Positions 33,422 through 64,000 of a stretch of DNA of 64,000 nucleotides are shown in pieces. This DNA is from Longibaculum muris (GTDB lineage: Bacteria > Bacillota_I > Bacilli_A > Erysipelotrichales > Coprobacillaceae), in the NCBI RefSeq assembly GCF_004343035.1, contig NZ_SMCQ01000008.1, positions 1-64,000 on the forward strand, read 5' to 3'. Each line of letters begins with the position of its first letter. The first letter of the stretch is position 1. Under the pieces are notes generated by a model. That model was not told where the DNA came from, made no database searches, and saw only the letters and a list, made by a program, of their open reading frames with translations. Made by a program: the position numbers and the translations under genes.

Positions 33422-35284
33422 TTAACAAGTGATTTCAATACCTGTTTCATATTTCTTATCATCAACAATGACACGTACTTTATAAGTTCCACTTAATCCA
33501 GCTTTATTGACTGAACATGTAACTTTTCTTGCATCTTTTTCAATAAATGTACCACAACATAATGCAGCAAATGGTGTTTTTGCAGTTGAAATGAAGTAAC
33601 CATGTTGTTCTTCACCTTGTTCTAACATCAACATAACCAATTGTCCTGATTCAAATGTTGCTTTGAAATTGAAACGATCATCTTCTTCTTCAATAGAAGC
33701 TTCATAGATATGAGAAAGTTCTTCACCACAACAATCCATAGGAATTAATGTATCAGATTCTTTTGTTACTCCCATATGTCCTAAGCGTTTTCCTTCACCT
33801 AATGGTAAATTATCTTGATTATGATACAAGCTTAATTTTTCAGCACGATAGAAATTACCTTTTACTTCTAATTCTAGCATCACTTCATCATCTAAAACTT
33901 CAACCGTAATAGAACGTGTTCTAACCATTGGATCATCTTGCATTAAAGCTGCAAATTGTTCAGATGCATCATCACCATAATATTGAATACCACCAGAGTG
34001 AACCATATAATGTCCTTCTTTATAATATTCAACATTACAAATATATTGAGAATAGAATTCTTGTCCTCTTTCTTTACCATATTGCCATACTTGTTTAATA
34101 GTCATATCATCAGTATTGATTTTATAACGAACTCCTCTTGAGAAGTTATCTTTATTTAAAATACGTTTTTCAGGATTTTTAGAACGGAAATGTCCGTTAT
34201 CAAAACACATAACATCACCATTAGGTGTAATTAAGTTAGCATGTTGTTCATATTGCCAATCAAAATCATTACCAACTGGTTTAAAGAAATATGGTGTATA
34301 TTCTTCAGGCCACATTTCAGGGTCACCAATGATCCAATTGAGTTTACCAGTATCGAAATCAATATTACACATACTATCAATATGACGACCAGAGAAAGTC
34401 AGAGAATTTGTATTTTCATCATACCAAACAGCATTGTTATGGAACCAGTCTTCTTCAGTCCAGCTACCACTTCTTGCAACTTTAGCTGGATCTAAGAAAT
34501 CTTTATAATCCCATGTTTTTATGATTTCACCAGTGTTACGATCAACCATCACGCACATATCTTCAACAGTTTCACTTGTTAAATCTTCTGTTAAGATAAG
34601 TAGGTTTCCATTTTCTAATTCGAATTGGTCATGATGGTAACCCCCTGGAATTGTGAATTCTTTAATAACTTTACCTACCATTGTCATTTCATAAATTCCT
34701 GACATATAGTAAGGAAGTCTCAATAAACGATGTGTACCAATTAAAATATTCCCATTTCTTGCACGTTTAATATCAAATACTGTAGGAATATTTAAATGCC
34801 ATCTAACATCACCAGCAAAGTCAAAACCTGTTGCTAAATCAGTTAAGGCTGGTGAAACAATAATTAACTCATCTCTTAAATAATGATAAGTTGTATTCAT
34901 ATGAACTAATTCAGGAACATCATTAGATAAAGGTTCAGTTTGAATCTTAACTGTATTTTTAGCTCCACGATATAATTCAATTTCAACAGTGTTTTCATAT
35001 CCACCATACAAACCTAAAACAGGTAAAATATGAGTTGTTGCTTTAGGGAATGTATGTTCCATTGTTGCTTCAGGAGTTTTTCCTAAAACTCTAACTGTTA
35101 CTGCTACTTCTTTTTCTGTTTTAAATAAGATAACTGCAGCTAATGGATTAATAAAGTAAGGATTTAATTTTACTAGTGGATTTTCCAATGTATAATTTCC
35201 ATTTTCTAATTCATCTAACATTGCTTTTTCAGCTTCAGTTTGACGATCAACCAAGCTTTTTGTGAAAGTATATTCAATAGCCAT
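33422..35284 (-). CDS. assT: Aryl-sulfate sulfotransferase, paralogue 1
   Basis: 620 residues: an Arylsulfotran_N-like N-domain (about 1-140) and a beta-propeller catalytic domain. Motifs include PGGYHHDQFE, EDWFHNNAVWYD, TFSGRHIDSM, QHANLITPNGD, CFDNGHFR and MVHSGG. In E. coli AssT the catalytic set is His252, His356, Arg374 and His436; here Arg of GHFR and His of MVHSGG are 62 residues apart, matching 374-436. It should move sulfate from one phenol sulfate to another phenol without PAPS. No signal peptide is present, unlike periplasmic AssT, so it is cytosolic. Lies 15 nt after assT2. Confidence 0.9.
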   Translation of the reverse strand: MAIEYTFTKSLVDRQTEAEKAMLDELENGNYTLENPLVKLNPYFINPLAAVILFKTEKEVAVTVRVLGKTPEATMEHTFPKATTHILPVLGLYGGYENTVEIELYRGAKNTVKIQTEPLSNDVPELVHMNTTYHYLRDELIIVSPALTDLATGFDFAGDVRWHLNIPTVFDIKRARNGNILIGTHRLLRLPYYMSGIYEMTMVGKVIKEFTIPGGYHHDQFELENGNLLILTEDLTSETVEDMCVMVDRNTGEIIKTWDYKDFLDPAKVARSGSWTEEDWFHNNAVWYDENTNSLTFSGRHIDSMCNIDFDTGKLNWIIGDPEMWPEEYTPYFFKPVGNDFDWQYEQHANLITPNGDVMCFDNGHFRSKNPEKRILNKDNFSRGVRYKINTDDMTIKQVWQYGKERGQEFYSQYICNVEYYKEGHYMVHSGGIQYYGDDASEQFAALMQDDPMVRTRSITVEVLDDEVMLELEVKGNFYRAEKLSLYHNQDNLPLGEGKRLGHMGVTKESDTLIPMDCCGEELSHIYEASIEEEDDRFNFKATFESGQLVMLMLEQGEEQHGYFISTAKTPFAALCCGTFIEKDARKVTCSVNKAGLSGTYKVRVIVDDKKYETGIEITC

Positions 35285-35299
35285 TTTGTACCTCTTTTC

Positions 35300-37156
35300 C
35301 TAGCATTCGATTTGAATGCCTGTTTCATATTTTTTATCATTAATAATAACTCTTACATCATAAGTTCCTTTTAAACCAGATTTATTAACACCAGTTCTTG
35401 TATTACGATCATCTGTATCTAAGAATGAACCACAGCACATAGCTGTTGCTGGTTTTGCAGTTGTAGGAATATAGTAACGATGAACTTCATCACCTTGTTC
35501 TAATAACATCATTGCTAAATCACCCTTCATGAAACGACAGAAGAATGTAAATTTATCCATTTCATCTTCAATTCGAGCATTGCAATCTTCTGGTAACATT
35601 TCACCACATGCTTCAGCTGGAATTTCTGTATCAAATTCTTTTGTAACACCCATAGAACCTAAAATTTTTCCTTCACCTAATTCTAAGTTTGTTCCTTCAA
35701 CATATAATTTCATTTTTTCAGCACGATAGAAATTACTATTTGTCTTTAATTCGTACATTTTTGTATTATTCACAACTTCAACAGTAATGGCTTGTTGATA
35801 TCCACCTGTTTGAATTGCAAATGGTCCTAATGCTTCAGAAGGAATACCATCTTTATCATAAGCAATACCACCAGAGTGAACTAAATAATGACCTTCATTA
35901 TAATATTCAACATTACAAATATATGGTGAGAAGAATTCAGCTCCACGATCCTTACCATATTGCCATACTTGTTCAATTGTCATATCTTTTGTATTAATTT
36001 TATAACGAACTCCTCTTGAGAAGTTATTATAAGCAGGTACTTTCTTTTCTTCTACCTTTGTTGAGTTATGATGGTTATCAAAACACATAACATCACCATT
36101 AGGAGTAATTAAGTTAGCATGTTGTTCATATTGCCATTCAAAATTATTTCCAACTGGTTTAAAGAAATACTTTTGCATATGTTCTGGCCAAGTTTCAGGA
36201 TCACCAATAATCCAGTTTAACTCTCCACTATCAAAGTCAATATTAACCATTGAATCAATATGACGACCAGAGAAAGTTAAAGAATTTGTATTAGCATCAT
36301 ACCAAACAGCATTGTTATGGAACCAATCCTCATCAGTATAAGATAAACCTTTTCCTTCACCAGGAGTCAAGAATTTCTTATAATCCCAAGTCTTTAAGAT
36401 TTCACCAGTATTACGATCTAATAAGATACACATATCTTCAACTGTATCACTTGTTAAATCTTCAGTTAAACATAATAAATTTCCATCAGGCATTTCAAAT
36501 TGATCATGATGATATCCACCTGGAACACGGAATTCTTTATAAATCTTTCCAACTGGACTCATTTCATATAACCCAGACATATAGTAAGGTAATTTAATTA
36601 AACGGTCAGTTCCAATTAATAAATTTCCATTTCTTAAACGTTTAACATCAAATACACATAATGCTGTTAAATGCCAACGAATATCTCCAGCAAAGTCAAC
36701 TCCAATAGATTTTTCACTACCAGCTGGTGTCAAGAACATAATATTATCTTCAAAATATTCTGGTGTTGTTTGAATATATTCAACAACACTATGATCACAT
36801 ACATCACCAATTTCAATGTGAATTGTTGTTGTATTTCCACGATATGGAGTGATTTCTACAGTATTATTATAATTAGCATATAAACCTAAAACTGGTAAAA
36901 CATGTGTTTTTGCTTTAGGAAAAGTGTGCACAATGTCAGCAGCCTTTGTTTTTCCTCTTACTCTAATTGTTACAGCAGTTTCTTCTTCTGTTTTAAAACA
37001 TACAACTGCAGATAATGGATTAATTAAATACACATTTGTTTTAACTAATGGATTTTCAACAGTATAATTTCCACTTTCAAATTCAGCTAACATTTTTTCT
37101 TCAGATTCTTTTTGTAATGGAATCCAATGTTCTATTTTTTTATATTCAACACTCAT
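35300..37156 (-). CDS. assT: Aryl-sulfate sulfotransferase, paralogue 2 (conserved Arg replaced)
   Basis: 618 residues, collinear with paralogue 1 throughout and without signal peptide. It keeps PGGYHHDQFE, DEDWFHNNAVWYD, FSGRHIDSM, QHANLITPNGD and YLVHSGG. At the position of CFDNGHFR it reads CFDNHHNS, so the Arg aligned with catalytic Arg374 of E. coli AssT is Ser, with no length change. Substrate contacts or activity must differ; a heteromeric partner or altered specificity is possible. Strong AAGGAGG before the ATG. A hairpin at 37183-37207 separates it from trxA. Confidence 0.88.
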   Translation of the reverse strand: MSVEYKKIEHWIPLQKESEEKMLAEFESGNYTVENPLVKTNVYLINPLSAVVCFKTEEETAVTIRVRGKTKAADIVHTFPKAKTHVLPVLGLYANYNNTVEITPYRGNTTTIHIEIGDVCDHSVVEYIQTTPEYFEDNIMFLTPAGSEKSIGVDFAGDIRWHLTALCVFDVKRLRNGNLLIGTDRLIKLPYYMSGLYEMSPVGKIYKEFRVPGGYHHDQFEMPDGNLLCLTEDLTSDTVEDMCILLDRNTGEILKTWDYKKFLTPGEGKGLSYTDEDWFHNNAVWYDANTNSLTFSGRHIDSMVNIDFDSGELNWIIGDPETWPEHMQKYFFKPVGNNFEWQYEQHANLITPNGDVMCFDNHHNSTKVEEKKVPAYNNFSRGVRYKINTKDMTIEQVWQYGKDRGAEFFSPYICNVEYYNEGHYLVHSGGIAYDKDGIPSEALGPFAIQTGGYQQAITVEVVNNTKMYELKTNSNFYRAEKMKLYVEGTNLELGEGKILGSMGVTKEFDTEIPAEACGEMLPEDCNARIEDEMDKFTFFCRFMKGDLAMMLLEQGDEVHRYYIPTTAKPATAMCCGSFLDTDDRNTRTGVNKSGLKGTYDVRVIINDKKYETGIQIEC

Positions 37157-38550: not shown

Positions 38551-40026
38551 CTAAACTAATAGATTAATAAATGGAATACCCACAATAATAATAACAATAA
38601 ATTCAATCACAACAAAGACAGTTGAATATTTATAAACATCACCAGAAGTTAAGTATTCTTTGTTACCAAACATCATTGCTGCAAATGGTGAAGCCGCTGG
38701 TGTACAAGCCGCAGTTAATAAAACTGTGAAGATTAACAATGTGATAATTGGGGCAGGATTAACGCCTGTATTAACACAATAAGTTAAAACAACTGGTTGT
38801 AAAATCATACCAATAACAAGTGAATTGCAAATATTTGTTAAGACAATTGCAAATAACAATAAAACAATTGTAAACATACCACCTGAAATACCAGCAAAGA
38901 CTGGTGATAAAACAGTATTTAAGAAAGCTGTAATACCTGTTGCTTCATTTGTTAAAACACTTCCAAGTAAGATTGCTGAAGTACAAAGTAAATAAGTTGG
39001 CCAAGCAAAGTCTTTCCCCATAACTTCATTTAACTTTAAGACTGGTCCATCTTCAAAGCTTAATAATACCAAAATAGTTACTAATACCATTGGCATAATC
39101 AATGAATTAGCATTTAAGAAGTTTAAAATTGGTAAATTTGGTAATAAACTTGGTACTAACATCACAAAGATGAAAATGCATAAGAAAATACCATATGTTT
39201 TTTGAGACATTGTCATTGGTGGCAATGGATTCTTTTCTAACATTTCAATACTAATTTTCTTTAAAGGTTCTACATCAGGTCTAAAGATAAATTTCATAAT
39301 TAATACAGTTACTGCAATTAATAATAACCCAATAACAAAACATCCAATAAAGTATGATGCATTAGAAATCATCACACCATCCATAGAAGCCAAAGCTGGG
39401 AAGTTAGCTAATAACCCACGATAGTTTCCAAGTAACGCTAATCCATTAGCCATATATGGTGGAACAGGGAAACCAATTAAAGCTGCAATAACAATTCCAA
39501 CAATCATAACTTTAGGATATGCATCTGTTTTCTTGAATCCTACTTCATCAAAAATACCATAAAGAACTGGCCAGAATAAGAAGATTGGAGCGAAAGCACC
39601 AATGAAAACTGACATAACATATGTTCCAAGTAACATAACCAAAGTAAATATCCAAGGTCTTCCTTCAATCATTTTTCTTGTCATAATCCAACGTGCAATA
39701 TAAACCGTTAAACGTCTATTTGTTAAACCACCCATGAAAATCATTAAGAAGAACATTTGTACAACTGTTGGATTCCCAAAAGCTGACATCATAATATTTC
39801 CTGCAGGTGCAAAATCAGTAAACGCCAACATAACAATACTTGTTAAACTCGCTACTGAAGGATCAATTGTAGACCACAAATAAATAGTTCCAATAAATAC
39901 CCCCATAACTTGTAATCCGATTTTTGTAACATTTGGCAAGACACCCATTGGAACGAATCTAAATCCAAGCATGATAATCATTCCTATGATAAAATGGATG
40001 TACGAGCTGTTGATTTTCTTTTTCAT
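38551..40026 (-). CDS. SLC13/DASS-family anion transporter
   Basis: 491 residues with about eleven to twelve helices. FPVPPYMANGLALLG and the C-terminal TAACTPAASPFAAMMFG and ICNSLVIGMIL segments fit the divalent anion:Na+ symporter superfamily (dicarboxylate, sulfate or citrate carriers). The position at the head of the sulfotransferase run, behind its own promoter with a cre site, suggests uptake of an organic sulfate or carboxylate substrate (inference). The conserved repeated hairpins of DASS are visible as two related halves. Confidence 0.85.
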   Translation of the reverse strand: MKKKINSSYIHFIIGMIIMLGFRFVPMGVLPNVTKIGLQVMGVFIGTIYLWSTIDPSVASLTSIVMLAFTDFAPAGNIMMSAFGNPTVVQMFFLMIFMGGLTNRRLTVYIARWIMTRKMIEGRPWIFTLVMLLGTYVMSVFIGAFAPIFLFWPVLYGIFDEVGFKKTDAYPKVMIVGIVIAALIGFPVPPYMANGLALLGNYRGLLANFPALASMDGVMISNASYFIGCFVIGLLLIAVTVLIMKFIFRPDVEPLKKISIEMLEKNPLPPMTMSQKTYGIFLCIFIFVMLVPSLLPNLPILNFLNANSLIMPMVLVTILVLLSFEDGPVLKLNEVMGKDFAWPTYLLCTSAILLGSVLTNEATGITAFLNTVLSPVFAGISGGMFTIVLLLFAIVLTNICNSLVIGMILQPVVLTYCVNTGVNPAPIITLLIFTVLLTAACTPAASPFAAMMFGNKEYLTSGDVYKYSTVFVVIEFIVIIIVGIPFINLLV

Positions 40027-40090: not shown

Positions 40091-40119
40091 ATTATACAAA
40101 ATATGTAAGCGCTTGTTAA
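40091..40119 (-). promoter_or_regulatory. Promoter of the transporter/sulfotransferase cluster
   Basis: Minus-strand TTAACA (40114-40119), 17-bp spacer, TATAAT (40091-40096). A cre-like site fills the spacer next to the -35. Confidence 0.75.
40104..40117. promoter_or_regulatory. Catabolite-responsive element (cre), CcpA site
   Basis: TGTAAGCGCTTGTT matches TGWAARCGYTWNCW at 13 of 14 positions. Position over the -35/spacer predicts repression when preferred sugars are present. Confidence 0.7.
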
Positions 40120-52854: not shown

Positions 52855-53580
52855 TTAACATTTCACAAGATATGAATAACTTCCTCTTGAACCAGCAATA
52901 ATTGCATATTGATTTATCAATGTTGAAATACTTCCCTTATGATGATAATAATAATTATCTATTATTTCTAAGGTATTGTGTACACAATCGATAATAAGAT
53001 GATTATAATATTTCATTTGTAATAAGTTCATAAAGATATTGGCAAGCTGCTTTCTATTTGTATAAGCAAACTCAACAGCATGTTGATGACCCAATAAATA
53101 ATCATCAAATTTTTTTGTACCTACTTGTAAATTTTGATAACCCCTATATTTTTGATAAATAGCTTCACCGATTTGTCTTGAACCAGAATGAATCAATAAA
53201 TACAAATGATTCTTGTCTAATTCAATATCTTGATAAAGCTTATCAATTTGCGTCATCTCAACAAAATGATTTCCTTGACCAATAGAATTTTCACCACAAA
53301 TACAACTTCCCTCAAGTTTCTTTTTAACCTTTTCAATATGAATTTTCTTTAACTTCACATCAGTATCTTATAAAGCAATCCCACAACCAATATCATTTCC
53401 TATCAAACTTGGATAAATGACATTCTTAGTAACAATGGTTGTTCCTACTGGTGTTTTAGCTGGATGTAAATCTGGTAAACCAACACAATCAACAACGCCT
53501 AGATATTTTTCAATATTTTCAAGTTGTCTTATTGCCTCTGTTTCCATCCATAATTGCTTTTTCAAAGAGATAAAAAACAT
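52855..53580 (-). pseudogene. RtcB-family RNA ligase remnant, interrupted and truncated
   Basis: One frame holds an RtcB-like sequence split by TAA at 53368-53370. The first part has GLPDLHPAKTPVG and GNDIGCGIAL (metal Cys of the family); after the stop the frame continues DTDVKLKKI, then GQGNHFVEM, LIHSGSRQIGE, LGHQHAVEFA and the C-terminal GSRGSYSYLVK. It ends there, with GDPFSL still readable past a further stop, so the SLAHGAGR-type His motif that forms the guanylate intermediate is missing. The N-terminus abuts a LysR fragment. Non-functional remnant; the family is the RtcB2/PrfH-linked type by its short insertions (inference). Confidence 0.85.
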
Positions 53581-54246
53581 GTTTCATTAACTCAAGCAGG
53601 TCAACTCTTTTATTATGGGGCTCAAAATATATTAAAACAAGTTGAACTTTCTTATCAACATCTAGAAGCTTTTCAAAGAGGAGAAAGAGGAACATTAAAA
53701 ATTGGTTTTTTAAAAGATTTTGATTTTGAATTATTAAGAGAGTTTATAACTGAATTTCATCAAAAGTATCCTCATATTCAATTAGAATTAGGTGGATATA
53801 CATGAAAAACTTTAGAATCATTATTATTGTCTGGTGAATTAGATATCATTTTAAGTATAGATGCTTTAGATACTCCTGACTTTACAAAAGTCTTTATGAG
53901 AAAATTCCCATTAGTTGCTGTGGTCTATAAAGAACATCCACTAGCTTCTAAACAAAGCATCTGTGCTGATGATTTAAAAAATCTGATTTATGATATCAGA
54001 CAAGAAAAAGATAATCAGCCAAATATTGAATTAGAAGGGGCACTTCTACAAGTTTCTTGTAATCTAGGAGAAGCAATTGTCCATGAATTTGTCATTCAAC
54101 AAAATATCCGTTCTTATGTTTCTATCATTCCATTAAAACCAACTCAAGGTCGCGATATTTATATGATGTATCATAAGAATCGTTATAATCAACTGATTTC
54201 ACACTTTGAATCCATTTTAAAAAATAGAAAAGCTATATCAAAATAG
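53554..54246 (+). pseudogene. LysR-family regulator remnant without HTH, with in-frame stop
   Basis: Frame begins at LFQRDKKHVSLTQAGQLFYYGAQ, the end of a LysR HTH/linker, so about 50 N-terminal residues are gone. It is then interrupted by TGA at 53803-53805 (GGYT*KTLESLLLSGELD; TGG Trp expected) and continues to a normal C-terminus. It overlaps the start of the RtcB remnant, marking a deletion junction near 53553. Both flanking pseudogenes show that this locus has decayed. Confidence 0.8.
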
Positions 54247-54289: not shown

Positions 54290-57200
54290 TTATTCATTTT
54301 CTTTTCTTTTTTTATAGACTACAACACCTACGACGAAAGCCATTAATGCTGTTAAAGCAAATCCAGCTAATAAGCTTTGATCTTCTGTTTTTACAACTGT
54401 TGTTTGTTGATTATCAACAATTGGTTTCTTATCATTATTATTTGGAGTTTGGTTATCATTGTTATTAGGTGTTTGATTATCATTGCTATCTGGTACTTGA
54501 TTGTCATCAGAATCTTCTTTATGATCAAGATCATTGATGAAATTAATTGATGCAATATTTAATTCATCTCTATCTGATAATCCTTTAGCAAAAATTTCAC
54601 CCATTCTTGTTGAATCAACAATTTTACCATTTTCAACAATGACCAAACCACCTTTCCAAGCTGGATCACTAGCTAATTGTTCTTTACCATATTGAATAGC
54701 TTTAGCAACCCAAGATGCAAATTGTGGATTATTCAAATATGGTGTATGTCCACCAATATTATAACGAATATCATTTTCTTCAATATATTTTGCAGACTTT
54801 AAAGCACCATTTAACCAACTATCAATCTTTGACATCATGACAGTTCCACCACCTAAATGCACTTGTGCTCCCAATGTATCACCACTATAAAGAACTTTAT
54901 TTGTTAAATCAGCCAATTGCCCTCCTCCTGGTGTATGTTCATCAGGAATTTCAATAAATTGGAAAGTATTATCCGCAACAATTATTGTTTGCATATCTTT
55001 GATTGTTGTATAATCAAATAACTCTACTAAATCAACTCCATTTAATTTTGTATGTGGCTCATTTTCTGGCCAAACAAGTGTTGTTATTTCTTTTAACCTT
55101 TCATCCTTAGCAATCTGAGCTAAATTGTTCACATGATCACCATGATTATGTGTTAAGAAAATCTTTAATGATTCACATTTATCACCAATCACACTCTTAA
55201 TCACTTGATTAATCACATTTTCACCATAGAAATCAACATCAATCATAAATGCTTCTTTTCCATCGCTACTTACATAGATAATTGGATTCTCCAAATCAGT
55301 ACCATTTAACATGTACCATTTTCCTTTACCAGCATTCTCCATTTCAATCACAAAGAAGTTTCCATATTGTTTTGTAATTGGACTTTCACGTTCTGCTCTA
55401 TCTGCATCAATAGCCTTTTGATCAAATCCCATGACTAATGATGTAATAGAATCATCAGCCCCTAAATCATATCCCCACCATCCATGAGAATCAATATGGA
55501 ATTTCAATGATACATTTCCTTCTTGACTTGTTGCAATAACATCTGTTCCACCACGAGTCGTTTCTTGATTAAATACTTTTGAATCATAAACAGAATCCAT
55601 ATCATATTTTAAATTTGTTTTTGGATCCATATCATTAATTTGATCTAATAATCCTAATAACTCATCAATATATACTTTATCAAGTTTATTCTTTTGACTA
55701 TCAATCACACTATATCCAGGATTAGCATCTAATAATTGTTTCACTTGTTTTACATTTGTATAGAAGTTAAGCATATTATAATAACTCATACCTGCTTCTG
55801 ATTTTCCATTTAGATATTCTGAATTTAAATAAACATCTTTTAATTGAATATCAACTGTTAATGCTTTTTCTTTACTATCTTTAGTTGCCATTAAATCCTT
55901 TGTATTTAAATGAGCTTTTAATAATTCAGAGACTTTTTGGTTTGTTTTTGTTCCATCTTTTTCATATCTAGGAATAATAACTTCATTAATAGCTTTATCA
56001 TAACTTGCTGTTAATTGAACACTATCATCTTTTGTTTGTTTATAAACCCAATCAATAGCATCTTTATTTAAACACATTAATCCTGTTGCACCATGATAAT
56101 AAGTAGATCCTACTGTTTTAAAATCATCATCAGAATATTTGGTTTGTTTTACTTTTTTATTAATATCTAATTGACTATATCCTTTATCTTTATACATTTT
56201 AACAAGTACATCATAAGGAATTGTCACTTCTGTATAAGGACCAGTAAAATCATTTTCACCTCTATGGAACCAAATAGAAATATCATTATCAACATATGTT
56301 TGACAGTATTCCACCATTGTTTTGTACGCTTCTTTATCTTCACTTGATTTATCACCAGATACAATTGATGTATTACATGGTAGATAAGCAGTAAATAGTT
56401 GAGGTGCTTGATAAACAGCTGATGACATAAATACTCCACCTTGTGAGTTACCTACTGCATAAACTCTATTTGTATCAACTGCATAATGATCAATAAAATA
56501 TTGAACAGTTTGATCAATGTCTTTGCCAGGATTATATTTATTTGGTTGGTTTTCACCTAAACATTGAATCGTCACCATAATCGTATCTTCAGGTGCGTTA
56601 GTAGAAAACGTTTTTGGTGTTAAATCAATATCTAATTCCACCCCAAAATTATCTTTTCCATATAATCTCTCGTCAGGTGTATTTGTTCGATATTGTTGTC
56701 CTCCTCCTGTACAATGAACAACCATAGGATATTTTTTATTTTTCGAATAATTTTCTGGTAAATAATATTTTACATAAATTTTATTATCTGATGTTTGACT
56801 ATCTAATTTCAAATCTTTAAACTCATCAGAAGCAATATTACGAATGTTATCCTGATTAAAAGTTTTTTCTGTATCCTTTGAACTCAAGATATTACCATTT
56901 GTAGCAACAATATCTACCATTTGTTTCACTTTAAACTCACTAACATATCTTCTAAAATTTCCACCTGGAGCCGTTAAGACTCCTGCAGCAGAATGTGTAT
57001 CAACATCTAAAACGATTTTATTACCATTCACGTCGATATCTTCAACTTCTATTTTTTCATTTGGATATAAGATATCTTGTATAACAAAGTCCTCTTTCTT
57101 CAAATTTTTACCATTAACATCTTCGTCATACTCTAAAGTAATTGAAGATAATGCTCTTTGTGGATAAGTTCCAAAACCTGGAATTTCTCCACACCAACTT

Positions 57201-57331
57201 ACATCACTTACTGCGCTAATTTTAATGTTTGATGTCTCGATAGCATGAACACTGTTCATAGGTATGTAAGACAATGTTAGTGCAGTTGCAACAAAAGCTT
57301 TTGCGATTGTTTTAACAAAATCTTTTTTCAT
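54290..57331 (-). CDS. Surface protein fusing an alpha/beta-hydrolase esterase to a metallo-beta-lactamase domain
   Basis: 1013 residues. Signal peptide 1-30; an Ig-like/N-domain (about 38-140); alpha/beta-hydrolase (about 180-435) with probable triad Ser296 (GNSQGG), Asp361 (ENDFTG) and His413 (YYHGA); helical linker (440-590); MBL domain (about 650-905) with ligands His728, His730, Asp732, His733 (HNHGDH), His799, Asp818 and His862 (GGHTPY); Asn/Pro repeat DNQTPNNN; TM helix 985-1006; basic tail KKRKENE. So both catalytic domains face outside. Substrate unknown: esterase plus MBL hydrolase suggests two-step cleavage of an ester or acylated polymer. No LPXTG. Cre site upstream. Confidence 0.88.
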   Translation of the reverse strand: MKKDFVKTIAKAFVATALTLSYIPMNSVHAIETSNIKISAVSDVSWCGEIPGFGTYPQRALSSITLEYDEDVNGKNLKKEDFVIQDILYPNEKIEVEDIDVNGNKIVLDVDTHSAAGVLTAPGGNFRRYVSEFKVKQMVDIVATNGNILSSKDTEKTFNQDNIRNIASDEFKDLKLDSQTSDNKIYVKYYLPENYSKNKKYPMVVHCTGGGQQYRTNTPDERLYGKDNFGVELDIDLTPKTFSTNAPEDTIMVTIQCLGENQPNKYNPGKDIDQTVQYFIDHYAVDTNRVYAVGNSQGGVFMSSAVYQAPQLFTAYLPCNTSIVSGDKSSEDKEAYKTMVEYCQTYVDNDISIWFHRGENDFTGPYTEVTIPYDVLVKMYKDKGYSQLDINKKVKQTKYSDDDFKTVGSTYYHGATGLMCLNKDAIDWVYKQTKDDSVQLTASYDKAINEVIIPRYEKDGTKTNQKVSELLKAHLNTKDLMATKDSKEKALTVDIQLKDVYLNSEYLNGKSEAGMSYYNMLNFYTNVKQVKQLLDANPGYSVIDSQKNKLDKVYIDELLGLLDQINDMDPKTNLKYDMDSVYDSKVFNQETTRGGTDVIATSQEGNVSLKFHIDSHGWWGYDLGADDSITSLVMGFDQKAIDADRAERESPITKQYGNFFVIEMENAGKGKWYMLNGTDLENPIIYVSSDGKEAFMIDVDFYGENVINQVIKSVIGDKCESLKIFLTHNHGDHVNNLAQIAKDERLKEITTLVWPENEPHTKLNGVDLVELFDYTTIKDMQTIIVADNTFQFIEIPDEHTPGGGQLADLTNKVLYSGDTLGAQVHLGGGTVMMSKIDSWLNGALKSAKYIEENDIRYNIGGHTPYLNNPQFASWVAKAIQYGKEQLASDPAWKGGLVIVENGKIVDSTRMGEIFAKGLSDRDELNIASINFINDLDHKEDSDDNQVPDSNDNQTPNNNDNQTPNNNDKKPIVDNQQTTVVKTEDQSLLAGFALTALMAFVVGVVVYKKRKENE

Positions 57332-57374
57332 ATTTTTTCCTCCCTTACTGTAACTACACTTATTTTACCATTAT

Positions 57375-57388
57375 TGTAAGCGCTTTGA
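57375..57388. promoter_or_regulatory. Catabolite-responsive element (cre) upstream of the esterase-MBL gene
   Basis: TGTAAGCGCTTTGA matches the cre core TGWAARCGYTWNCW except near its 3' end. It lies just ahead of a TAAAAT -10 on the minus strand, so CcpA repression by preferred sugars is predicted. Confidence 0.6.
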
Positions 57389-57539
57389 TATTTTGTAAAA
57401 ATAAATGAACAACGTCTTTTGAAACAAATATCAGATAAAAAAATATGTCTCATTTTTTGAGACATTAGTATATTTTTATTAAGAAGAAAAATATGTTTGT
57501 TGAAATATTCAATAAATATGATAGAATCAATAAATAAAA

Positions 57540-59141: not shown

Positions 59142-62100
59142 TTATTTCACTTGATTTTTCTTTTTCTTGTTGATAAGTAATGCCATAGCACACATTGATA
59201 TACCTAATAATCCTATATACATTTGATATTGTGTATTGTCTGATGTTTCTACTTTTTCTTCTGTTGTTGGTTGATTGTTGTTTTGTTCAGGTTCTCCAGG
59301 TTTATTTTCATCTGGTTTGTTTTCGTCTGGTTTATCTGGTGTTACAACAATATCCACTTCTTTTTCTTCTAATTTTTCTACTGCTTCTTGTAATTTCTTT
59401 ACAATTGCATCTACTGTTTCTTGTGTTGCAGTTTCATCTTTATAGATTTCTTCTGCTTCTTTTAATACTGCAGTCAATACTTCTACTGTTTCATCTGTAT
59501 ATAATTTTGTATCAATCGCTTTTGCTTCTTGAATAGCTTTTTCTAAAGCTTTCTTATCAGCTTTCTTGACTAATGCTTTGATGGCTGCATTTAAGTCTTC
59601 TACAGCTTTATCAACTTGTTTTTGTGTTGCATTTTCATCTACATAGATTGCTTTTACATCTTCTAATACTTTTTCTAATTCCTTAACTGTATCTTGGATG
59701 TATAATTCTTTATCTACTTCTTGTGCTTTATTGATAGCTTCTTCTAAAGCTTTCTTATCAGCTTTCTTAACTAATGCTTTGATAGCTGCATTTAAGTCTT
59801 CTACAGCTTTATCAACTTGTTTTTGTGTTGCAGTTTCATCTTCATAGATTGCTTTTACATCTTCTAATACTTTTTCTAATTCTTTTACTGTATCTTGGAT
59901 GTATAATTCTTTATCTACTTCTTGTGCTTTATTGATAGCTTCTTCTAAAGCTTTCTTGTCTGCTTTTTTAACTAAACTTTCAATTGCATTTTTCAATTGT
60001 TTCTTAGCATCAAGAATTTCTTCTGGAGTTGCTTTTTTATTTTTATAAACTGCAATTACATTTTCTAATGCTTCTTGATATTTAGAAACACTTGCTGATG
60101 TATAAAGACTTGTATCGATATTTTTATTTTCATCATAGTATGCTTTTAAGTCACCTTTTAAAGACACACCATAAACTTCGAATTCCCATAAAGAATATCC
60201 AAATTCTCCTACTGGTTGAATTCCTAACATTCTTACATATCTACCAATAGTGTCAGCTTCATACTTAAATTCTTTAATACCTGCTGATCCATTTGTTACA
60301 TGTGTGATATCAGTCCAGTTTTCCCCATCATTAGAAACTTGAAGCTTATATTCCTTACCACATGCTCCTTCCCAATTTAACACAATCTTTGAAATATAGT
60401 AATTATCTTGTAAATCAACATAAATCCACTCGTCATTTGATTTACGATTAGATACCCATCTTGATTGTTGATCATTAATTTTATCAGTATTTCCATCAAA
60501 GGCTAATGATGAATAATATTGTTTATTTCCATCTTTTGGATCAATAAATTCAGAGCTTGCTTTTGAAGGTTTGTTTAAAGCAATATTTGTTGTATTAGGT
60601 TTTTCTGTTAATTCACCATAGACTTCAAATTCCCATAAAGAATATCCATACTTAGCGCCAACTTTAACACCTTGCATCTTAACATATCTTCCAGTGATTA
60701 ATTCATCTAGCTTAATTTCTTGAATACCTATTCCATCTGTTCGATGGATAACTTCTTGCCATGTTTCTTGATCATCAGAAACAAGAATCTTATACTCGTG
60801 TTTACTGTCTCCTTCCCAATTTAAGACAATCTTTGAAATATCATAAGTATCTTCCAAATCCACATAAATCCATTCATCATTTGAATAATCACGATTAGAT
60901 ACCCATCTTGATTGTTTTCCATTAATTGTTGCTGATGATCCATCAAAAGCTAATGATGAATAATATTGTTTACCTCCATCAATATATTCTGAACTTGCTT
61001 TTGAAGGTTTATTTAAAGCAATATTAATTTCTTCTGGTTCTGGTTCACTTTGTTCTCCTACAAGTGCTCCATAAACTTCAAATTCCCATATTGAATATCC
61101 AAATTTATTTACTGGTTCTACTCCCAACATTCTTACATATCTACCAGTAGTTGGTTCTTCATAATTAAATTCAGTAATTCCAGCTTTACCTTCAGTCACA
61201 TGTGTGATATCTGTCCAGTTTTCTCCATCTTCTGATACTTGGAGTTTATATTCTTTAGCATATGCATCTTCCCAGTTCAAGACAATATTACTAATTTCAT
61301 AAGATGCTTGTAAATCAACATAAATCCAATCATCATTATGTTTACGATCTGATGCCCATCTTGATTGGAAACTGTTCGTTTTTTCTACACTTCCATCAAA
61401 GGCATTTTTTGCTGATAGGGAACTGCTATATTCGCTGCGTGCTTTTGCAGGTTTATTTAAAGCAATATTAGATGCTGTACCGTAAACCTTGATTTCAAAG
61501 ATATTAATTCCATAGTTCTTTCCACTAACAATTCTTGATTTAAGTGAATGGACTTTAATATAGCGTCCTGTCACTGCTTCATCAAAATTAATTTCATCAG
61601 TTAGAGTTTGATCAGTTTTTAATGAAGATTTGACTGTTTTCCAATTTTTATTATCAGATGAAACTTCAATCTGATAATTATCTGAACATGCAGCTTCCCA
61701 ATTAATGACAACTGCATTCATATTTGATTCTTTTCCTAAATCAATACTAATCCATTCATCATTTGAATCACGTTTTGATGCCCATCTTGTAGAAGTATCA
61801 CCATCTACTGCTAAACTTCCAACAAGTGATGAATCAACATTAGAAATAGAACTTGTCGTAGTTGGTTGATTTAATGAAAGAAGTTTTCCTTCATTAAATG
61901 TTAATTCTTTAATTTGATAATGTTTGTCCTTAGCAGATTTCATGACAATCTTTACATAATGACAAATCTTACCAATATTAATTGTTTCTTCTTTTCCTTT
62001 TCCATCTTTAACAGATGAGATTAATTGATAATCTTCTCCATCTTGAGAAATATAAACATCATACTCAGTTGCATATTGATCACCCCATAAGATGTTCATG

Positions 62101-64000
62101 TCTTTGATATATTGATCTGTACCTGTAAATACAGAAACCCATTCATCTTTGTTTCCTTGACTTTCCCAATATGTTGATGTATTTTCATCTACAACATATT
62201 TAGGTGAGTGTCCTTCTGTGTAGCTGCTTGCTACATATCTTGCATCTTCACCTTCAGATAGAGTGATAGATTGACCCGCATATGGTAATGCGCGTGTTGT
62301 AAATACAGTTGATGTATTTACTTCATCATAAGATAAATCAACATGAACTGTTCTATGAGCAACATAATCATTGGCAGCTACTGTGATTTCTCTTTGTTGT
62401 TTTGATTCATCAATCATTACACTACAAGGTTGATCTACTGTAATTGTATAACCTGGTTTGTATTCCAAAGTACCTGCTTTATAGAAATTGATTTGTGTTT
62501 GTTTCAATCCATCATGACGAACTGCTTGAATTTCTTTAGTATTGCTTACAATTGTCACTGGGATATCATTAGCATATTCACTTACATTTTCAGCTGTTGT
62601 ATTAGGTACAACAATATATGCATAACTTGCATCTACTGGTTTCACACCATGATCTAACCACGCAGTGAAAGTTGCAGGTGTTGATTTCTTTTTATCCTCT
62701 GGCCATAATGATGGGTTATCTGCTTGTAATGCATTACTTACAACAACTTTTTCTTCTTTAGGGAAAACATAACCAACTTTATCATTATATAACCACTTTG
62801 TTGTATATTCTTTTTTCTTTGTTCCTTCTGCCACTTTTTGATTGTTTACAATGACATTATCTGCTTCACTTTGATTTAATGTTGTATTAATCGCAACACT
62901 TTCTTTAGAAGTAATTCCTGCACCTAATGCAACAAATTCATCATCAAAGAAGAAATATCCTTTCGATGCTTGGGTATTTTTCTTATTCATTGCATAAGAA
63001 GTAGCACCGTATTTCCCATTTGTTACACCAATCATATGATCAGTTCCGTTTGTAAAACGTCCTGAGTTTGCATAATCCTTAACAATACGAGCTGCTGTTG
63101 TTGTTCCAGGACAATGTGCCCAATCGTAAGTTGGGAAAACATTTGTATATTCATCACCATCAACTGTAATTGTTGAAGCAGCTGATGATGTCCAGTAAAT
63201 AAGTTGTCCTTCATCTTTTCCAGCTGGCCAACTTCCACGCCATTCTCCACCAATGACACTCTTAGAATCCATCTTGATATTGACACCATAGCCATCTCTC
63301 ATATGAGATGCATAACCAGATCTCCACATGTAATAGTTTCCATCTTTGCCATTTGATGTTGTTTTTCCTTCAATGTTATCTAATACTTTCTGATATTCAT
63401 TGGCTCTTAATGGGTCTGAATCAATCATTCTCTTTAATGGTTCAATATATTCAGCCGCATAATTCTTATATCCAACTTCATATTTATATGGACGATATCC
63501 AAGATATAATTCCATGATATCTCCTCTGATTGTCCAGCTTGTTCCATTGAGCATATAGTTACCCATTCTTGTCACAACTTCTTGATTGATTGCAAACTCT
63601 GTTCCACGTAACATATAAATCCAGAAACTCATATCTCTAAACATAGACATTCCATATCCGTTTGAATAGAATTGACGTCCATGCATATAATAACTGTTAT
63701 CTACTTGTACTGCTTCAGCTGTTACATCATCTTCTTGAGTTAATAAACAATAATCTAAATAGTCAGTAACCATTTCTTTTAACTTTTTAGCATCATTAGT
63801 CAACAATGCATGATATACCCAGTTTTGATCACGCCATAATTCATTTTGACCAGTACCATATTTTACAGGTTCTCTCTCTAAAAGTTTAGTAAGCATTATA
63901 TCTTGTGCTTCTTGACTAATAATTCCATCCATGAATAAAGCAATACGAGAAAAACGTAATTGCACTCCAACTTCATTTTCCCACCAGTTTTTAGAATATG
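59142..64000 (-). CDS. Polysaccharide lyase family 8 surface enzyme with five discoidin and four FIVAR modules (5' partial)
   Basis: At least 1618 residues; the 5' end lies beyond the window, as the frame is open to 64000 with the PL8 hallmark NWWENEVG just before the first possible internal start. PL8 catalytic segment DNSYYMHGRQFYSNGYG provides the probable His/Tyr pair; the lid/beta-sandwich domains follow. Then come five F5/8 type C (discoidin) domains, four with the repeated motif SRW(A/V)S and EFEVYG or similar ends, four helical FIVAR modules, a Pro/Glu-rich spacer with DENKPDENKPGEPEQ, a TM helix and a basic tail KKKKNQVK. It should cut hyaluronan- or chondroitin-like glycans at the cell surface (family inference). 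Confidence 0.9.
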   Translation of the reverse strand, partial: YSKNWWENEVGVQLRFSRIALFMDGIISQEAQDIMLTKLLEREPVKYGTGQNELWRDQNWVYHALLTNDAKKLKEMVTDYLDYCLLTQEDDVTAEAVQVDNSYYMHGRQFYSNGYGMSMFRDMSFWIYMLRGTEFAINQEVVTRMGNYMLNGTSWTIRGDIMELYLGYRPYKYEVGYKNYAAEYIEPLKRMIDSDPLRANEYQKVLDNIEGKTTSNGKDGNYYMWRSGYASHMRDGYGVNIKMDSKSVIGGEWRGSWPAGKDEGQLIYWTSSAASTITVDGDEYTNVFPTYDWAHCPGTTTAARIVKDYANSGRFTNGTDHMIGVTNGKYGATSYAMNKKNTQASKGYFFFDDEFVALGAGITSKESVAINTTLNQSEADNVIVNNQKVAEGTKKKEYTTKWLYNDKVGYVFPKEEKVVVSNALQADNPSLWPEDKKKSTPATFTAWLDHGVKPVDASYAYIVVPNTTAENVSEYANDIPVTIVSNTKEIQAVRHDGLKQTQINFYKAGTLEYKPGYTITVDQPCSVMIDESKQQREITVAANDYVAHRTVHVDLSYDEVNTSTVFTTRALPYAGQSITLSEGEDARYVASSYTEGHSPKYVVDENTSTYWESQGNKDEWVSVFTGTDQYIKDMNILWGDQYATEYDVYISQDGEDYQLISSVKDGKGKEETINIGKICHYVKIVMKSAKDKHYQIKELTFNEGKLLSLNQPTTTSSISNVDSSLVGSLAVDGDTSTRWASKRDSNDEWISIDLGKESNMNAVVINWEAACSDNYQIEVSSDNKNWKTVKSSLKTDQTLTDEINFDEAVTGRYIKVHSLKSRIVSGKNYGINIFEIKVYGTASNIALNKPAKARSEYSSSLSAKNAFDGSVEKTNSFQSRWASDRKHNDDWIYVDLQASYEISNIVLNWEDAYAKEYKLQVSEDGENWTDITHVTEGKAGITEFNYEEPTTGRYVRMLGVEPVNKFGYSIWEFEVYGALVGEQSEPEPEEINIALNKPSKASSEYIDGGKQYYSSLAFDGSSATINGKQSRWVSNRDYSNDEWIYVDLEDTYDISKIVLNWEGDSKHEYKILVSDDQETWQEVIHRTDGIGIQEIKLDELITGRYVKMQGVKVGAKYGYSLWEFEVYGELTEKPNTTNIALNKPSKASSEFIDPKDGNKQYYSSLAFDGNTDKINDQQSRWVSNRKSNDEWIYVDLQDNYYISKIVLNWEGACGKEYKLQVSNDGENWTDITHVTNGSAGIKEFKYEADTIGRYVRMLGIQPVGEFGYSLWEFEVYGVSLKGDLKAYYDENKNIDTSLYTSASVSKYQEALENVIAVYKNKKATPEEILDAKKQLKNAIESLVKKADKKALEEAINKAQEVDKELYIQDTVKELEKVLEDVKAIYEDETATQKQVDKAVEDLNAAIKALVKKADKKALEEAINKAQEVDKELYIQDTVKELEKVLEDVKAIYVDENATQKQVDKAVEDLNAAIKALVKKADKKALEKAIQEAKAIDTKLYTDETVEVLTAVLKEAEEIYKDETATQETVDAIVKKLQEAVEKLEEKEVDIVVTPDKPDENKPDENKPGEPEQNNNQPTTEEKVETSDNTQYQMYIGLLGISMCAMALLINKKKKNQVK
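59540..59975 (-). repeat. Near-identical tandem FIVAR-coding repeats
   Basis: Two 201-bp units (67 codons starting KKADKKALEEAINKAQEVDK) lie head to tail near 59768-59968 and 59567-59767 with only a few base differences, followed by a diverged third unit. The near identity at DNA level indicates recent duplication or gene conversion, and repeat-number variation is likely. Confidence 0.8.

Follow-up and report, generated by a model that had tools for sequence, protein, structure and literature searches.

An exported protein of Longibaculum muris joining an EstA-type esterase to a metallo-beta-lactamase-fold domain, and its modular relatives in Erysipelotrichales

The gene located at positions 54290..57331 (minus strand) of the 64-kb stretch of Longibaculum muris DNA analysed in this work (referred to below as the window) encodes a surface protein of 1013 aa, in which an esterase, a middle domain and a metallo-beta-lactamase (MBL)-fold hydrolase are joined in this order. 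Our proposal, in which we place as much confidence as doubt, is that this protein is a secreted, probably sortase-attached and catabolite-controlled surface hydrolase with two active sites, whose substrates would be acylated compounds of glycoside or phenolic type. An earlier note on this DNA knew of no characterised enzyme with such an arrangement, and in the literature searched none was found: the search for the esterase/MBL architecture gave nothing relevant, and there was likewise no description of the modular family to which the protein belongs. However, the uniqueness of the architecture which that note implied did not hold, as Erysipelotrichales have further surface proteins in which an MBL and an esterase are fused, the order of the parts being the same in some and permuted in others. 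The architecture is uncommon and uncharacterised, yet not unique.

The open reading frame of the fusion gene is unbroken over 3 kb and has an ATG start with an AGGGAGG ribosome site. Together with the signal peptide read from the sequence of residues 1-30 (MKKDFVKTIAKAFVATALTLSYIPMNSVHA; 57242..57331, minus strand, as for all parts of the protein given below), and with the Pfam matches to Esterase and Lactamase_B, both above cut-off, this confirms that an esterase and an MBL are carried by a single exported polypeptide; the ten catalytic and ligand residues named previously are all located at the numbers given for them. Following the catalytic domains is a spacer rich in D, N and P (residues 940-979; 54395..54514) and then a sortase-like tail (54293..54394), consisting of VKTEDQ (not LPXTG), a hydrophobic stretch and KKRK, a kind of tail that is also seen in relatives; the Pfam Gram_pos_anchor model gave 12.4 bits here against a cut-off of 20. 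The VKTEDQ motif occurs twice in the genome, once in the fusion protein and once at the C-terminal end of a second long protein of surface type, and four sortase genes are present. Of the earlier description of the protein as exported and membrane-held, the export signal and a surface tail are borne out, but the tail is better read as one of sortase type, and from its sequence the protein is probably sortase-attached. Searches of plasmid and viral collections revealed no relatives of the fusion protein or of the module formed by its second half. A large surface polysaccharide lyase of family 8, which contains F5/8 type C and FIVAR repeats and ends in a VETSD-type tail, is encoded nearby (59142-63998, minus strand) and extends past the end of the window.

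In the first half of the protein, the Pfam models Esterase and Peptidase_S9 both match above cut-off, and an EstA-type alpha/beta hydrolase with the nucleophile motif G-N-S296-Q-G-G (residues 178-440; 56012..56800) is indicated by Pfam, phmmer, a profile and the alignment of homologues. The candidate nucleophile Ser296 (56444..56446), triad acid Asp361 (56249..56251) and triad base His413 (56093..56095) are invariant in the fusion protein and the five esterase homologues aligned with it, and the complete triad postulated earlier is thereby upheld. The best solved relative of this half is 3doh (E = 1.7e-11 by phmmer, with the match beginning at residue 102, and 1.6e-32 by profile), EstA of Thermotoga maritima, and the two have in common the alpha/beta hydrolase core and the GxSxGG nucleophile motif, and possibly an Ig-like region ahead of the core. 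However, 3doh is a chain of 380 aa without an MBL domain, whereas in the fusion protein additional residues separate Asp361 from His413 and the EstA_Ig_like-type region (residues 60-149; 56885..57154) is weakly matched, the Pfam model PF18435 giving E = 0.0011 and 19.6 bits, below its cut-off of 26.7. With the neighbouring esterase of T. saccharogumia the L. muris esterase shares a common fold class, the relationship not being close. The L. muris genome also contains, on contig C27 (L152, 4698-7843), a stand-alone EstA-type surface esterase that is directly followed by an RpiR-type pair.

The MBL-fold hydrolase domain (residues ~656-935; 54527..55366) is identified by Pfam, a structural model, fold comparison and alignment, with Lactamase_B matching residues 724-823 at 31.8 bits (cut-off 22.7). 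Its seven ligands, H728, H730, D732, H733, H799, D818 and H862, are invariant in all 17 copies of the module (14 from Coprobacillaceae and three divergent ones from the sister family), in agreement with the claim that the ligand set is complete. The AlphaFold model of the second half of the protein, for which nine sequences were used, had a pLDDT of 83 and a pTM of 0.85, and its MBL part matched ODP, SPM-1, IMP-1, SdsA1 and other MBL-fold structures in Foldseek. Matches to the lectin PLL2 that arose in other searches were short and lacked the MBL motif, and were discarded. The ligands follow the pattern HxHxDH + H + D + H, in which Asp818 occupies the position of Cys221 of B1 enzymes and the His that closes the motif (His733) is kept. 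A bridging Asp at the place of Cys221 is typical of the glyoxalase II/lactonase/phosphodiesterase branch, and by established knowledge the predicted ligand set is the one used by glyoxalase II, by lactonases and phosphodiesterases, and by hydrolases like them. However, the domain differs from the glyoxalase II/MBL lactonase branch, with which it shares this pattern, in scoring far below the family cut-offs, in being extracellular, in having a new domain ahead of it and in being fused to an esterase. Its best weak NCBIfam match was to hydroxyacylglutathione hydrolase (GloB), at 26.8 bits against a cut-off of 200.8, and a profile search matched PDB 2xf4. The secreted MBL alkylsulfatase SdsA1 is similarly a multi-domain MBL hydrolase, besides being a fold match, but its accessory domains are different ones, placed after the MBL, and the identity is ~11%.

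Between the two hydrolases lies a middle domain of ~215 aa (residues ~440-655; 55367..56014), in which a G-x-W-G-Y motif (G617, W619, G620, Y621) is invariant in the 17 module copies. The L. muris copy of this domain has no Pfam match and gave nothing significant in PDB sequence searches; its residues ~436-612 were modelled confidently and consistently in both runs (viz. the second-half model and a separate model of the domain), and the separate model had no significant PDB fold match. As judged from these models, it is a new domain to be defined, without a Pfam family or a known fold match. Comparison of the copies shows the middle domain and the MBL (residues ~440-935) as what is, at the sequence level, a single evolutionary module, here called MBL-B. 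Strong MBL-B matches were present in 11 of 43 Coprobacillaceae genomes, and a 392-genome sample of the phylum contained no further strong match, the genome samples being confined to the same class as L. muris, with Clostridia apparently outside. Divergent modules (34% identity) were found within the order Erysipelotrichales in a neighbouring family, in three of its genomes (G538, G485 and G551). Within the 11 Coprobacillaceae genomes the module occurs singly, in tandem or behind an MBL of a second subtype, MBL-A (G030 and G027), and an esterase precedes it, among the 43 genomes, in L. muris only. In one 1010-aa protein (L004, G030), Gln replaces the third His of the first MBL (PGQTEGS) and the second MBL is complete, which suggests that the first is a decayed site; another genome, which belongs to the neighbouring family, has a frameshifted MBL-B remnant (L012, G093).

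The idea that the fusion is unique was dropped after the proteins of G538, G485 and G551 and a family of MBL-A-esterase proteins had been found. The G538 protein has the same order as that of L. muris (esterase - middle - MBL-B), whereas in G485 and G551 the order is middle - MBL-B - esterase. However, the G538 esterase is not of EstA type but belongs to the esterase family of the MBL-A proteins (profile E = 4e-88), and therefore, judging from sequence relationships, the G538 and L. muris fusions look independent in origin. In several genera (e.g. L106, L107 and L137-L139) an MBL-A followed by an alpha/beta hydrolase forms one long surface protein. These proteins resemble the L. muris protein in uniting an MBL and an alpha/beta hydrolase in a single surface protein and, for three of the genes, in being preceded by a cre-like site. 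They differ from it in that the MBL comes first and is of the other subtype (31% over 137 columns against MBL-B), in that their esterases have no similarity to the L. muris esterase detectable by BLAST, and in that the neighbours in several of the loci inspected are of AraC type, not RpiR. Further, a 1400-aa protein of G070 combines MBL-A, an alpha/beta hydrolase, an Ig-like domain and an EstA-type esterase, and in G011 (L139) a gene for an EstA-type surface esterase lies directly before the MBL-A-esterase gene. The pairings seen are esterase with MBL-B, MBL-A with MBL-B, MBL-A with esterase and MBL-B with MBL-B, the recurrent partners of the MBLs being esterases and GDSL hydrolases. That the same parts are repeatedly joined or adjoining suggests that they act on a common material.

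The surroundings of the fusion gene can be compared with those of the module gene in G005. There gltX is followed by an RpiR pair, the module gene and RtcB, with murA at some distance, whereas in L. muris gltX is followed by the fusion gene, a frameshifted LysR remnant (53554..54246, plus strand; recognised by Pfam LysR_substrate matches that are split over two ORFs, and by tblastn), a truncated RtcB gene (52855..53556, minus strand; Pfam RtcB, matching residues 10-247 of 338, and longer in G005) and, further on, murA; the gltX genes are 94% identical over the part compared. Based on these gene orders, the fusion is placed at a syntenic, recombined locus without the regulator pair, and the locus shows what read as signs of recombination. 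In the module tree, despite this synteny, the L. muris copy does not stand beside that of G005. The fusion most likely originated by the joining of an EstA-type domain to an ancestral surface MBL-B module. The fusion may be recent and its benefit a putative one, since none of the other Coprobacillaceae genomes searched has the L. muris esterase half joined to MBL-B. Elsewhere in the window, two adjoining arylsulfotransferase (ASST) genes are present on the minus strand (33422-35284, with a Pfam match of 1e-103, and 35300-37156, recognised by its similar sequence).

In the mechanism that we propose, the export signal and the surface tail would place the protein at the cell surface, where the esterase would remove acyl or aryl-ester groups from a compound of glycoside or phenolic type and the putative zinc hydrolase would cut a second ester-like bond (such as an ester or a lactone), either in that compound or in the product of the first step; the sugar released would then be taken up. 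Preferred sugars would probably lower expression through the cre-like site, and a dedicated RpiR-type pair would probably control it, in L. muris from another place in the genome. Deglycosylation of the flax lignan SDG has been reported for T. saccharogumia and its relatives (PMC7731202), and acylated plant phenolic glycosides are therefore a reasonable first substrate panel, and no more than that. If both sites act on one compound, gut Erysipelotrichales would be able to open esterified compounds at the cell surface by a route that could not be predicted from present enzyme catalogues.

Other functions of the MBL half need to be weighed against this proposal. The half could be a surface phosphodiesterase resembling the pneumococcal phosphorylcholine esterase (Pce/CbpE) and acting on the glycans of the cell or the host, with the esterase half deacylating the same polymer. 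Pce is an MBL-fold hydrolase displayed on a Gram-positive surface by choline-binding repeats and without a serine esterase domain, and an exported surface MBL that has a tail of its own and a bridging Asp, which by established knowledge is part of the usual phosphodiesterase set, would suit such a role. However, Pfam detects no choline-binding repeats, none of the 50 PDB fold matches listed is Pce, and these MBLs are recurrently partnered by esterases and GDSL hydrolases, not by enzymes of wall polymers; we regard this reading as unlikely. A drug conjugate, suggested earlier as one possible target, or a beta-lactam leads to a second reading, a beta-lactamase or AHL-lactonase serving as a protective surface enzyme against antibiotics or signal lactones, and in its favour are the MBL fold, the presence of IMP-1 and SPM-1 among the fold matches and the known promiscuity of MBL superfamily activities (PMC10318434, PMC10340364). 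However, B1 enzymes use Cys221 as a zinc ligand within an HHH/DCH set (PMC10318434), and here Asp818 takes the place of that Cys and His733 is extra. The NCBIfam beta-lactamase models also fall far short of their cut-offs, the B3 models giving 16-17 bits against cut-offs of 580-625. B3 enzymes have a His121-type Zn2 set without an Asp221 ligand, and Asp818 is no feature of that class. Because the residue set differs from those of B1 and B3, a drug role is unlikely; the beta-lactamase reading was dropped on the ligands and these scores, and the RpiR regulators and sugar-uptake genes beside the relatives do not suggest drug defence. Taken together with the lactonase variant, we consider a protective role quite improbable, though the MBL half could easily be mistaken for a drug-resistance gene, against which its ligand set argues. 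The least probable reading, to which we give hardly any credence, takes the MBL not for a hydrolase but for an ODP-like di-iron domain of the type that senses oxygen or NO. ODP chemotaxis-sensor structures are indeed the best fold matches, and there is a Pfam ODP match below cut-off. However, ODP and flavodiiron proteins have the motif HxExDH, which is absent here, all 17 copies having HxHxDH; this makes an ODP-type di-iron function unlikely, and the domain is moreover extracellular and fused to a hydrolase.

It should also be asked whether the fusion as such has a function, or whether it is a one-off product of recombination with a single working half, kept by drift, in which the MBL module alone is functional. 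That L. muris alone has this fusion among the 43 genomes of its family, that gene remnants adjoin it and that the RpiR pair lies apart from it would all be accounted for in this way. However, the frame has stayed intact with both catalytic sets complete, the promoter operator is conserved, and the esterase - middle - MBL order recurs in G538 and is permuted in G485 and G551, so that we think this explanation, too, improbable rather than probable. Returning to the two-site surface hydrolase, we also offer a broader reading tentatively, as being rather less probable than not: Erysipelotrichales would possess an undescribed modular system of surface proteins, assembled in varying pairs and orders from two MBL subtypes, the GxWGY domain and several esterase families, with MBL-B having its own RpiR pair and cre-like operator, and with the paired sites acting sequentially on one acylated dietary or host compound. 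The L. muris protein would be an esterase-first member of this system.

With regard to the regulators, eight loci of Coprobacillaceae (L031-L034 and L058-L061) have a pair of small RpiR-type (HTH_6) genes immediately upstream of the module gene. In T. saccharogumia (L036) the pair is two genes away, the genes in between being a LysR gene and one for a surface protein that resembles feruloyl esterases, and in L. muris it is found alone on another contig (C1); the contigs of G042 do not allow adjacency to be called. A profile of the second RpiR regulator, built without three of the 11 positive genomes (L. muris and two others), detected a close copy, scoring at least 307 bits, in exactly the 11 module genomes, and scores in genomes without the MBL-B module were at most 207 bits. 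The genes of G485, G538 and G551 likewise have RpiR-type pairs beside them, as established by reading and not by a scan. The fusion gene is probably controlled by this dedicated pair, to the extent that co-occurrence and the position in relatives indicate it. The strict co-occurrence provides a direct genetic handle, as the sugar phosphate that acts as inducer would give a lead to the substrate. Genes reading as PTS, GH1 or GH4-type occur near several MBL-B copies, but not in every locus. On L. muris contig C28 (L153, 1384-5878), a 914-aa surface protein which by reading resembles a GH3 glycosidase is found next to another RpiR-type pair.

The cre site which had been proposed to lie over the fusion gene is present in its promoter as a cre-like palindrome with one mismatch (57374..57389), and just downstream of it is an extended -10-like box, TGGTAAAAT (57362..57370, minus strand), of the conserved form TGnTAnnAT. 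By counting, this site is at the level of chance, as the window contains 28 cre-like matches against 30 expected, and it was at first accepted as such. However, comparison of orthologous promoters reversed this interpretation: in the aligned promoters of 9 of 10 family genes a cre-like site is kept at -59 to -47, just ahead of the TGnTAnnAT box, and the flanks vary. Further, a cre-like site lies at -65 to -40 in 13 of 171 gene starts, all but one of these 13 belonging to genes for surface MBLs or esterases (12 of 13), although the 171 starts are a small set from 18 loci, several of them chosen for those genes, and the figure is one of association and not of genome-wide enrichment. The best CcpA-like protein in the genome scored 266.7 bits against a curated cut-off of 442. 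From the placement of the site, expression of the fusion gene is probably lowered by preferred sugars. The core pattern TGTAAGCGCTT has three copies in the genome, two of which are within the window, and a second cre-like site with this core (40103-40117) lies 77 bases before a transporter gene (38551-40026).
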